Made by a program: the position numbers and the translations under genes. Of a stretch of DNA of 64,000 nucleotides, positions 39,334 through 44,346 are shown piece by piece. This DNA comes from Candidatus Neomarinimicrobiota bacterium (lineage in GTDB: Bacteria; Fidelibacterota; Marinisomatia; Marinisomatales; TCS55): positions 3,883-67,882 of the forward strand of contig JABIDL010000033.1 in assembly GCA_018651745.1 (NCBI GenBank), read 5' to 3'. How positions within the stretch are numbered: position 1 is the first letter of the stretch; each line of letters begins with the position of its first letter. The notes below the pieces were generated by a model that saw only the letters and a list, made by a program, of their open reading frames with translations, was not told where the DNA came from and ran no database searches.

Positions 39334-40712
39334 TGGACATTTCAAACAGAGCGGCTATTGATTTAATGGGAAAAAATGTTACCGTTCTCGGTATCGGTAA
39401 AAGTGGCATTGCAGCAGCAAAGCTCGGACAGAAATTGGGTGGTTGTATTTTCATAAGTGACCAAAACAATTCTAATAAAATCAGTTTATCATTGAATACT
39501 TTATCCGAAATGGGAATTTCTGGCGAAGCGGGAATACATTCTGACCGCGTTCAAGAGTCAGACCTCATAGTCGTTTCACCTGGAATTTCACGATGGGCTG
39601 AAGTCATTGCGAAAGCCGATTCAAACAATATCCCGGTAGTGGGTGAAATCGAATTTGCCAGTTGGTTCACAAATGCACCCATTGTAGCAATAACGGGATC
39701 CAACGGTAAAACGACAACCGTTCATTTATTGCATGAAATGTGTAGCACAGATTCACTTCACAGCAGTTTAGCAGGAAATGTTGGATTTCCCTTTTCTGAA
39801 GCTGTTTTGAATGATATTAATTCACCTGATCAGAAACGGATATATGTTCTCGAAATTTCTAGTTTTCAGATGGAATTTACTATCCACTTCTACCCCCATA
39901 TATCTGTATTTCTCAATATTACACCTGATCATTTAGACCGCCATAAGGACATGGAAGAATATGTTAACGCAAAATTAAAATTAGCGGATCGCCAAACTTC
40001 TTCTGATTTTATTATTTACAATTTAGATGATACCCTTCTGTCTTCAGCATTTGATTCGGCCACCGCTACAATATTCCCATTTAGTCTTAAATCAAACGAA
40101 ACATTATTTGGATTGAATGAAACAAAAATTTTCGATGAAGAGCACGCAACCCTCATCGATCTGGAACGAATCGCCCTGCCTGGCAGGCACAACCTCGCTA
40201 ACCAGTTAGCTGCCGCATCTGCGGCCCATCTTTTGGGTGTGGATCATAACCACATTTCCCAGGTGATGGAAACGTTTGCTGGTGTGGAACATCGCCTTGA
40301 AACTGTGATGGATAGTAAAGGTGTGACATACATAAACGACTCAAAAGCCACCAATGTGGACGCGGTCAATGTCGCCCTTGAAAGTCTTAGCACGCCAACC
40401 ATCCTAATCCTCGGAGGAATTGATAAAGGTGGTGATTTCACAACGCTCCTTCCACATACCCACAACTACCTAAAAGAGGTTATTGCTTTCGGGCAGGCGC
40501 GAAACCAGATTGAAAACGTCATCGGAGACTCGGTGATTTTCACGTCAGTTGAAAATCTTCAAGAAGCTGTTAATCTTAGCCGCGAGCATGCTGAAGCTGG
40601 ATATTCAGTATTGTTTTCACCCGGATGCTCTAGTTTTGATCAGTTTCAAAGTTATGAAGAGCGTGGTAGAGCATTTAAAAATGCCGTAAGAAAATTTGAT
40701 GTAGCATCATGA
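39333..40712 (+). CDS. murD: UDP-N-acetylmuramoylalanine-D-glutamate ligase
   Basis: Adds D-glutamate to UDP-MurNAc-L-Ala. The ATG at 39333 overlaps the mraY stop (TGATG) and gives 459 residues; a longer frame would lie inside mraY. N-terminal Rossmann GIGKSGIAAAKLG, ATP loop [14 protein letters not shown], central LNITPDHLDRHKDMEEYVNA and C-terminal YINDSKATNVDAV and ILGGIDKGGDF. All catalytic blocks of the Mur ligase family are intact. Overlaps ftsW by four bases. Confidence 0.96.
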   Translation: MDISNRAAIDLMGKNVTVLGIGKSGIAAAKLGQKLGGCIFISDQNNSNKISLSLNTLSEMGISGEAGIHSDRVQESDLIVVSPGISRWAEVIAKADSNNIPVVGEIEFASWFTNAPIVAITGSNGKTTTVHLLHEMCSTDSLHSSLAGNVGFPFSEAVLNDINSPDQKRIYVLEISSFQMEFTIHFYPHISVFLNITPDHLDRHKDMEEYVNAKLKLADRQTSSDFIIYNLDDTLLSSAFDSATATIFPFSLKSNETLFGLNETKIFDEEHATLIDLERIALPGRHNLANQLAAASAAHLLGVDHNHISQVMETFAGVEHRLETVMDSKGVTYINDSKATNVDAVNVALESLSTPTILILGGIDKGGDFTTLLPHTHNYLKEVIAFGQARNQIENVIGDSVIFTSVENLQEAVNLSREHAEAGYSVLFSPGCSSFDQFQSYEERGRAFKNAVRKFDVAS

Positions 40713-41854
40713 AGCAGCTTAACATTATTAATAAAAAATACGATAGACCGCTTTTGATCGGAATTTTTGGATTGTGTGTTATCGGAACCGTCATGTTGTA
40801 TAGCGCCAGCACAACACGATCACTTAATTTTACAGATGGATTTACCAACACCATGTACCTTCAGTTGCACTTAAAAAGGTTGTTCGTTGGAATCATTGCC
40901 CTCATCTTTTTTACCATGTTTGATTACCGTAAACTAAAGCGCATTGCCCCCATTGCAGTCGTTGTTTCCATCGTAATGCTTGCCTTAACAAAAATCGTTT
41001 ATCTAATTCAAGGAAACACATTTCCCGCAAGATGGCTTCACTTCGGATTTATGACGTTACAAACATCAGAGCTTGCAAGGTTTTCACTCATTCTTTTTTT
41101 GGCTTCTTACATTGACCGGAAGCGTAATACGATTAAGGATTACTATAACGGATTTGCGCCACCAATCATAGTTATGGGCGTTATAACTGCACTCATTATT
41201 ATTCAACCAGATTTTAGTACGTCTGTCCTGATTTCCGTTATCGGAATGGCGATGCTTTTTTTCGGAGGAGCTAGATTTTCGCACATCCTAGCTACTACCA
41301 TTGGTGCCATTACAATTCTCATTCCTGCAGGATTGGCGAGAGGCTACCGAGTTTCTAGATGGGAAACATGGTGGAGCCCCGAAAATGCTTCGAGCGACGC
41401 GATGCTTCAAATTAGCCAATCCTTGATTTCCCTCGGGAATGGCGGTCTGTTTGGAATGGGACTTGGAAATAGTACCGAAAAAAATATGTTCCTTCCAACG
41501 CCACATACAGATTTCATCTTTGCTATTATTGGAGAAGAAATTGGGTTTCTTGGAACCGTTGCCGTACTTACGCTTTTTCTTTTCCTATTTCAACGTGGAA
41601 TAAAAATCGCTAAAGAGACTACTGACTTATTTGGTGTAATGGTCGCTTTGGGCATTTCATTCAGTTTCATTCTATATGCATTTACCAATGTAGCTGTAGT
41701 TACGAATCTTGTACCTACAACCGGACTACCGATGCCACTCGTTAGTTATGGTGGTTCTGGACTGGTGATCAATATGGCGAGCCTTGGAATATTGCTCAAT
41801 ATCAGTCAAGGAAAACGATCAGTGAATTCTCGTAAAGGATGGAGCTTAAATTAG
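40709..41854 (+). CDS. ftsW: FtsW/RodA/SpoVE family lipid II polymerase
   Basis: 381 residues, ten transmembrane segments. Septal glycosyltransferase that polymerises lipid II next to FtsI. Signatures: LYSASTTRS near the start, ARWLHFGFMTLQTSELAR with the lipid-facing ARW...QTSE block, IIQPDFSTSVLI carrying the catalytic Asp, the PTPHTDFIFAIIGEEIGFLG loop and the terminal PLVSYGGSGLVINM. FtsW rather than RodA is chosen from the dcw position. Confidence 0.92.
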   Translation: MKQLNIINKKYDRPLLIGIFGLCVIGTVMLYSASTTRSLNFTDGFTNTMYLQLHLKRLFVGIIALIFFTMFDYRKLKRIAPIAVVVSIVMLALTKIVYLIQGNTFPARWLHFGFMTLQTSELARFSLILFLASYIDRKRNTIKDYYNGFAPPIIVMGVITALIIIQPDFSTSVLISVIGMAMLFFGGARFSHILATTIGAITILIPAGLARGYRVSRWETWWSPENASSDAMLQISQSLISLGNGGLFGMGLGNSTEKNMFLPTPHTDFIFAIIGEEIGFLGTVAVLTLFLFLFQRGIKIAKETTDLFGVMVALGISFSFILYAFTNVAVVTNLVPTTGLPMPLVSYGGSGLVINMASLGILLNISQGKRSVNSRKGWSLN

Positions 41855-41855
41855 T

Positions 41856-42958
41856 ATGATAAATAGTATTCGCATTTTAATTGCCGGTGGAGGGACCGGA
41901 GGACACCTCTTCCCTGCCATTGCGCTTGGTGAGCGAATTCTTGCAGATTGCCCATATTCCAGCATGCATTATATGGGCTCAACTTTTGGAATTGAAGCAA
42001 ATATTTTTCCAATTAAAAATATGAATCATACGTTAATCCCGATTCGAGGATTGCAACGAAACTTTAATCCTTCTGGAATTGGAAAAAATTTATTATTGCC
42101 GTTTAGAATTTTGAAATCAATAAAAATGACCAAAAAAGTATTTAACGCATTTAAACCTGATGTTGTTGTCGGAACTGGAGGGTATGCATCTGCCTTACCC
42201 ATTCGAGAAGCAATAAGCCGAGATATTCCAGTTCTCATACAAGAGCAAAATTCTTTTCCGGGGATCACGACCCGATGGTTTGCAGACAAAGCAGATACAG
42301 TCTGCATCGCATTTGAAGAAGCAAAAAACCATCTCAAAAAAAAACTCTATTTGTCACCGGAAACCCAGTTCGAGCCGGAATTAATGAAGGAAACAGCATG
42401 ATAGCTGCGCAAAATTATGATCTTGATCCCAAGAAAAAAACACTCCTCATTTTTGGAGGAAGTCAAGGATCGGCATTATTAAATAAGACAGTGAGTGAGA
42501 GTGTAAAATTATTAGAAAAATCTAAAATCCAATTCCTTTGGCAAACCGGGAAAAACCAATATGATCAATTAAAATCATTCGAGTCAGATTTTACAAGGGT
42601 TTTACCGTTCATTGATGACATGGGAAGTGCGTATGCATTGGCCGATTTGGCCTTATGCAGAGCCGGAGCTTTAACAATATCTGAATTGACATTGTGCGGC
42701 GTTCCGGCACTATTCGTTCCTCTCTCCAATGCGGCCGGAGACCACCAAAAAAAGAATGCATCTGTCATGGAAAAAGAAGGCGCAGCAATTGTGTGCAATG
42801 AGGATGATTTCACTTCAAACATTTTTTCGAATCAAGTGATTGGACTTTTGAAGAATGAAAATCAATTATTCCAAATGAGCGAAAAGTCTCAAAAATTGGG
42901 AAAGCCGAATGCAGTCAAAGACATTACAAATCATATCATGGAATTGGTTCATGCATAA
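41856..42958 (+). pseudogene. murG: UDP-GlcNAc:lipid I N-acetylglucosaminyltransferase, frameshifted at a run of nine A
   Basis: Makes lipid II from lipid I at the inner-membrane face. The N-terminal half (41856 on; GGGTGGHLFPAIAL, QEQNSFPGITTRW) and C-terminal half (FGGSQGSALLNKTV, LCRAGALTISELTLCGVPA) lie in two frames. The break is at an A9 run (42336-42344): after it the correct frame reads TLFVTGNPVRAGINEGNS, the linker before the second domain, whereas the open first frame gives an unrelated tail and a TGA at 42399. One extra A restores a normal enzyme of about 367 residues. As the gene is essential and everything else is intact, a sequencing error or slippage is likelier than true loss. 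Confidence 0.9.
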
Positions 42959-44346
42959 TGTTTAGAAAAGTAAAAAAACTTCATTTTGTCGGTATTGGTG
43001 GGATTGGGATGAGCGGTATTGCAGAATTACTTTTAAACCTTGATTTTGAAATTTCAGGATCTGATATCTTGGAATCTGAAATTGTACAAAAATTAAAGTC
43101 GAAAGGCGCCAGCATACATATTGGTCATGATGCGAAAAACTTGGGGGATGCGGAAGTCCTTGTTTATTCCAGCGCTGTCAAAGAAAATAATCCGGAAATT
43201 CAAATAGCTAAGCAACGCAATATTCCCATCATTCGGAGAGCGGAAATGCTGGGAGAGCTAATTGATGTGAAAGAAACATCCATCGCAGTTGGCGGTACAC
43301 ATGGGAAAACATCCACATCATCCATGCTTGGCGCTATTCTTGCAAAAGCAAGATTGGATCCAACGCTCGTTGTCGGAGGACTTGTGCAAAGTATTGGCAC
43401 CAATTCCATGCTTGGATCAGGAGACATCATTGTGGTAGAAGCTGATGAATACGACCGCAGTTTTCTTGCTTTAAATCCCACCTTATCCCTTGTGACGAAC
43501 ATTGAATTGGAGCATACGGATATTTATTCTGATTTGGATGACATGAAGCAGGCATTCGTTCAATTTTGTAATTCAGTTCCCTTTTACGGAGCCGTTGCTC
43601 TTTGTATCGATTCCCATCATGTGAATAATATTTTACCTGAAATTCGGCGTCCTATTTTAACCTATGGACTTCATTCGAATGCAGATGTTAGAGCAGAAAA
43701 TATTAGTTACAATAAAACTCAGGCAACATTTACTCTAATCCATAAAGGAGCAGAATTGGGGACGATCCTATTGCAGGTTCCTGGCGAGCACAATATTTTG
43801 AATTCGCTGGGGGCAGCTTGTATTGGGATTGAATTGGGTCTTGTGTCCCATGATATAATTCAGGGATTAAATAAATATAATGGTGTTCGTCGGAGATTTG
43901 AAATAAAAGGAACCATTAACGACATTTTAGTGGTTGACGATTATGCTCATCACCCAACGGAAGTAAAGGCAACCCTTAAAGCTGCAAATGACGGGTGGGA
44001 TAGAAGAATTATCTCCATTTTTCAACCTCACTTATTCACGAGAACTCGAGACTTTTTTATGGAATTTGCAAATGCATTTCTCAATAGCGATGTGCTGATT
44101 ATAACAGAAATTTATCCCGCACGAGAAGAGCCAATTAAGGGAATTACAGGCGAATTGGTTGCGAAGGCTGCAGAAAATGCTGGGCATAAAAACGTTTTAT
44201 TTATTCCAGACTTAGAAGATCTTAACAAACAACTTGATTTAATTGCGCAACCAGGGGATATGGTATTAACTATGGGTGCCGGTACAATTTGGCGATACAG
44301 CGACAAATATTTTTCTCATTTAAAAAATGTGGAGGCCGCAGCCTAA
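42958..44346 (+). CDS. murC: UDP-N-acetylmuramate-L-alanine ligase
   Basis: Adds L-alanine to UDP-MurNAc, the first stem-peptide residue. N-terminal LHFVGIGGIGMSGIAELL, ATP loop AVGGTHGKTSTSSML, VVEADEYDRSFL, NIELEHTDIY, and the C-terminal VDDYAHHPTEV and IFQPHLFTRTRDF motifs. 462 residues, typical. It starts directly at the murG stop (TAATG). Confidence 0.96.
   Translation: MFRKVKKLHFVGIGGIGMSGIAELLLNLDFEISGSDILESEIVQKLKSKGASIHIGHDAKNLGDAEVLVYSSAVKENNPEIQIAKQRNIPIIRRAEMLGELIDVKETSIAVGGTHGKTSTSSMLGAILAKARLDPTLVVGGLVQSIGTNSMLGSGDIIVVEADEYDRSFLALNPTLSLVTNIELEHTDIYSDLDDMKQAFVQFCNSVPFYGAVALCIDSHHVNNILPEIRRPILTYGLHSNADVRAENISYNKTQATFTLIHKGAELGTILLQVPGEHNILNSLGAACIGIELGLVSHDIIQGLNKYNGVRRRFEIKGTINDILVVDDYAHHPTEVKATLKAANDGWDRRIISIFQPHLFTRTRDFFMEFANAFLNSDVLIITEIYPAREEPIKGITGELVAKAAENAGHKNVLFIPDLEDLNKQLDLIAQPGDMVLTMGAGTIWRYSDKYFSHLKNVEAAA

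Follow-up and report, generated by a model that had tools for sequence, protein, structure and literature searches.

Over a third of the murG genes that we read at the domain junction in Candidatus Neomarinimicrobiota (37 of 99) are split between two reading frames, always at an uninterrupted run of nine to eleven A in the linker joining the two domains of the enzyme. These are probably living genes whose full-length product arises through slippage at the conserved run, most plausibly during transcription, combined with a stop-start restart on messages that have not slipped.

The broken murG gene and its distribution

The gene was read in a window of 64,000 nucleotides (the whole stretch of DNA analyzed, from genome G000), in which murG lies between ftsW and murC. 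The features referred to below are as follows.

40709–41854, + strand: ftsW, preceding murG, given as context (best match TIGR02614, E = 3.4e-97, just below the cut-off of that model)
41856–42958, + strand: murG, the whole broken gene, with its second half continuing in the −1 frame
41856–42401, + strand: upstream (zero-frame) ORF of murG, 181 amino acids, PF03033, TIGR01133 positions 4–157
42336–42344, + strand: slippery A9 run, which the upstream frame reads as three AAA codons
42344–42958, + strand: downstream (−1) frame of murG, PF04101, TIGR01133 positions 155–352, stop codon TAA at 42956–42958
42345–42401, + strand: zero-frame tail after A9, a stretch that in split genes is constrained in the downstream frame and not in the zero frame
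42398–42401, + strand: ATGA, in which the zero-frame TGA stop shares bases with an ATG of the downstream frame, a possible reinitiation site
42956–42960, + strand: TAATG, the murG stop overlapping the murC start
42958–44346, + strand: murC, following murG, given as context (TIGR01082, above its cut-off)

The upstream ORF encodes the GT28 N-terminal domain followed by the A9 run and an 18-codon out-of-frame tail, which includes the peptide LYLSPETQFEPELMK and ends at the TGA at 42399–42401. The downstream frame carries the linker TLFVTGNPVR and the GT28 C-terminal domain, with no start codon in the window's murG between that frame's own upstream stop and the GNP motif. Each half by itself scores below the cut-off of the TIGR01133 murG model (353 positions) while together they cover it, and their matches to positions 4–157 and 155–352 place the break at the domain junction. 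MurG chains from the PDB align to the two halves with the join at the same place. Our re-reading of the DNA agrees with an earlier sequence-only reading as to the position of the run, the end of the first frame and the presence of TGNPVR in the frame that follows. That reading had also taken murG to be single copy, and profile searches at the family and order level indeed returned one C-domain match per genome; the second murG that it had named as a sign of possible true loss was not found, G000 containing a single C-domain match.

Neomarinimicrobiota are free-living bacteria. To map the break among them, murG was surveyed by C-domain profile and open-frame length across the family, the order and the phylum, followed by reading of the DNA at the junction, all genomes being draft or metagenome-assembled. 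The 37 split genes, set against 62 intact ones, come from genera g1–g3 of family f1 and from nine more families, and belong to at least two classes. Within f1, all 11 sampled genomes of g1, g2 and g3 are split and none among the other scored family members. The remaining cases fall in f16 (six, in g39), f8 (five: G086, G087, G088, G091 and G092), f25 (four), f3, f5, f10, f19 (g50) and f24 (two each) and f4 (one). Outside the phylum no split murG was seen, all 64 loci recovered from other phyla being intact. In every split gene the run of A9, A10 or A11 lies shortly before GNP, which is itself present in all 37, and the frames are rejoined by one additional nucleotide (or a −1 ribosomal shift), with no instance of the opposite direction. 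The earlier proposal that one extra A would restore a single protein thus extends from the window to the whole set. The break is fixed within nearly all genera. At the same place, 11 intact genes carry an A9 or A10 run in frame (nine in g6, plus G031 and G194). The best murG tree, built from murG itself by a quick search on which gain and loss are not distinguishable, contains at least nine changes of state, six of them forced by well-supported (starred) branches, so the split is either old with losses or was gained repeatedly.

Two irregular cases were noted during the survey. In the small-genome family f15, the C-domain match of G067 contains three internal stops and that of G071 is a partial frame of 152 amino acids. 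G194 and G195 (loci L184 and L183) were considered as a natural indel pair and rejected, as their N-domains are nearly identical while their C-domains are far apart (dS 1.67); one of the two may therefore be mis-assembled or a mosaic, its parts joined near the A10 run by recombination or in a chimeric assembly. No conclusion drawn here depends on this pair.

Homopolymers are error-prone and every genome is a draft or metagenome assembly, and a homopolymer error was the first explanation offered by the sequence-only reading. Genomes G001 and G002, of the same genus as the window's genome, share both the A9 run and the break. Sequencing or assembly error as a general cause is contradicted by the recurrence of one break, in one direction, across 37 genomes of a single phylum; their run lengths differ, and ten or more of the assemblies bear separate names and stem from different projects. 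It is also contradicted by the uniform presence of the split in g1–g3 against its absence in the rest of the scored family. The pattern is too widely conserved for such an error, which by this comparison has a negligible chance of being the cause and is regarded as excluded. Cells with a split murG would thus very probably depend on a copying slip for production of the enzyme.

Selection on the two halves and the joining stretch

Both halves of murG are under purifying selection. C-domain dN/dS in split pairs is 0.04–0.26 where computable, similar to intact pairs, and the relaxed constraint past the break that is expected of a pseudogene is not seen in these values. Split genes are likewise constrained between the run and the seventh codon beyond GNP, where pN/pS is 0.17 in the downstream frame and 1.17 in the upstream frame, while the zero-frame tails vary in length and sequence. 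In 28 of the 37 split genes, the part of the downstream frame that lies between its preceding stop and GNP contains no start codon. Constraint confined to the downstream frame, combined with the usual absence of a start codon, indicates that the stretch after the run is translated by ribosomes entering across the run.

These results also bear on whether murG might be a decaying pseudogene or subject to on/off phase variation at the DNA level. One pair of loci from a single genus (L058 in G031, A10 in frame; L059 in G087, A9 and split) differs by one A within near-identical flanks, as phase variation would produce. Against either process stand the single murG per genome, the constraint on both halves and the fixation of the break in nearly all genera, as does the essential role of murG in peptidoglycan synthesis wherever a bacterium has retained the mur cluster. 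We consider such an origin highly improbable, and on the comparative data the pseudogene reading appears excluded.

Slippage in transcription or on the ribosome

In the mechanism that we favor, some transcripts would receive one additional A from RNA polymerase (or a number equivalent to it modulo 3), which would put the C-domain in frame with the N-domain and yield full-length MurG, while unslipped transcripts would give the N-domain with a short variable tail. From the features of the split genes we infer that the slip takes place in transcription, at a rate that leaves both kinds of message, and that reinitiation follows on the unslipped ones. Nine A is taken as the usual threshold for slippage, and a run length conserved among homologs is a sign of purposeful slippage (PMC1088944). 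All 37 split genes have a run of at least nine A at the frame junction and the same frame relation. The sequence-only reading had named transcriptional slippage as its second explanation; the conserved run length and direction lend this comparative support, short of proof.

Programmed −1 ribosomal frameshifting on A_AAA_AAA would make the same product from an unaltered mRNA. This heptamer, one of the known slippery ones (PMC3711429), is present in the correct phase in every split run, the direction is −1 in every split gene, and weak slippage on A_AAA_AAA needs no stimulator. However, a heptamer requires just seven A while the run is never shorter than nine, a length that these genomes avoid, and the two leading, surplus A are invariant in all 37 genes. 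In addition, split genes have no excess of upstream Shine-Dalgarno sequences over intact genes and no excess of downstream folding (mean z −0.66 in split and −0.63 in intact genes; under −2 in 3 of 37 and 7 of 62), in a scan against intact genes and shuffles whose scope was structure other than pseudoknots. With no ribosomal stimulator found and a run that is never below nine A and of a rare length, transcriptional slippage appears the best mechanism, and frameshifting by the ribosome an unlikely one that retains some weight.

The rarity of long runs is evident from whole genomes. In the 1.86 Mb of G000, A9 is the longest run and occurs 20 times, roughly one-tenth as often as A8 (215 runs), and murG is the only gene found split among these A9 runs. 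Runs of at least nine A number 5 in G092 and 7 each in G028 and G151, and between 2 and 53 across the split genomes examined. The AT-rich setting mentioned by the earlier reading does not fit, since third-position GC (GC3) of split genes is 0.28–0.65 and the most AT-rich lineages of the set are all intact. An AT-rich sister lineage in f8 (g23; G084 and G085) has an intact murG and no run. Avoidance of long runs is weak in G084 compared with its relatives (1253 A8 runs and 477 of at least nine A), which is consistent with, and not proof of, a less slippery polymerase.

A candidate second A9-split gene of G000, L158, was rejected because it is the place where a phosphatase-like gene meets a rhodanese-like one. 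The phosphatase-like gene (minus strand, approximately 2490–2480, G000:C20 near 62680) has an in-frame TGA in the context LDPCG-TGA-KKNPLGGLPRRATQ, a candidate selenocysteine codon, and SelA is present in the same genome.

A point against the favored mechanism is the absence of the run from many lineages with an intact gene, which makes neither slippage nor a short product a general requirement. Slippage at the in-frame A9–A10 runs of g6, G031 and G194 would, as for dnaX of Thermus, yield a short MurG as a by-product.

Stop-start contact, translational restart and known systems

In split genes the upstream-frame stop usually abuts or nearly abuts a downstream-frame ATG. Such contact, defined as an ATG within −1 to +8 nt of the stop and scored identically in intact genes, is found in 30 of 37 split and 6 of 62 intact genomes. 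By genus the counts are 10 of 16 and 5 of 41 (p = 0.0003 by Fisher test, which treats genera as independent although they are not). Some of the ATGA cases are to be expected, given how a TGA comes about in the +1 frame. A +1-frame stop before GNP is rarer in split genes (5 of 37, against 30 of 62 intact; p = 0.03 by genus). Nearly all split genomes also have an overlap between the murG stop and the murC start, mostly TAATG or TGATG, and in the window the TAATG at 42956–42960 makes it likely that murC is coupled to translation of the downstream murG frame. The stop-ATG contact suggests that translation reinitiates there, which would either maintain the coupling of murC or produce the C-domain separately. 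Ribosomes ending at the zero-frame stop could restart at the touching ATG; on unslipped mRNA such a restart would spare murC and the genes after it a polar effect and may yield a free C-domain.

The contact could alternatively mean that MurG functions as two polypeptides with no frameshifting, the N-domain ending at the zero-frame stop and the C-domain beginning at the adjoining ATG. Alg14/Alg13 and PssD/PssE are two-subunit GT28 transferases with a MurG-like fold cut between the two domains; murG is cut in the same position, a restart codon would give a similar C-subunit, and its C half also matches the PssE family. In contrast to those true separate genes, the joining linker of murG is still under selection upstream of the ATG, as its low downstream-frame pN/pS indicates. 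The segment upstream of the restart usually lacks a start codon of its own, and some split genes (G178, G151) lack a good restart. As the sole route to the enzyme, expression in two pieces is therefore quite improbable, and it may operate alongside frameshifting. A tentative proposal, which we rate as possible and somewhat doubtful, is that both decodings are selected, a slip giving one-piece MurG and an unslipped message the N-domain plus a reinitiated C-domain. If so, the slip rate would set how much of the enzyme is made in one piece and how much in two, and translation of the remaining mur-fts operon would be maintained.

Conserved slippage at A runs has been reported for dnaX, IS elements, tssM and symbiont genes (PMC1088944, PMC3711429, PMC4256274, PMC3017870, PMC5009743). 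Like murG, dnaX is a housekeeping gene with an A9–A10 run for which transcriptional slippage was shown or proposed, and it exists in in-frame (A9, Thermus thermophilus) and out-of-frame forms (two ORFs, A10, Chlorobi) (PMC1088944, PMC3711429). It differs in gene and phylum and in the known role of its short product. The tssM ORF of Citrobacter rodentium is similarly interrupted after an A run (A11), full length being restored by added A in the mRNA to give two length variants; unlike murG, it is an accessory secretion gene whose slippage was shown by mass spectrometry, with conservation reported just to Yersinia tssM3 (PMC4256274). In Buchnera and Blochmannia, essential or cell-wall genes are also broken at poly-A with a conserved break, and 12–50% of transcripts are corrected (PMC3017870, PMC5009743). 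Those symbionts have reduced, AT-rich genomes that contain over 100 long runs, whereas bacteria with a split murG have few such runs and several of their lineages show high GC at third positions.

Searches of the literature that paired murG or Marinimicrobia with frameshifting or slippage returned nothing relevant, and no description of a similar stop-start signal in other slippage genes was found. As far as the literature searched shows, slippage of this kind is known; what is new is the gene affected, the reach across the phylum and the stop-start contact. Obligatory slippage in essential genes is known mainly from reduced AT-rich symbionts and dnaX; the probable murG case spans much of a widespread marine phylum and persists in lineages that otherwise avoid such runs. 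A split murG may be scored by annotation pipelines as a broken or missing gene, and metabolic reconstructions of Marinimicrobia would then be misled. Split genes, intact genes with an in-frame run and genes with no run together form a natural comparison set for neutral versus regulatory recoding.
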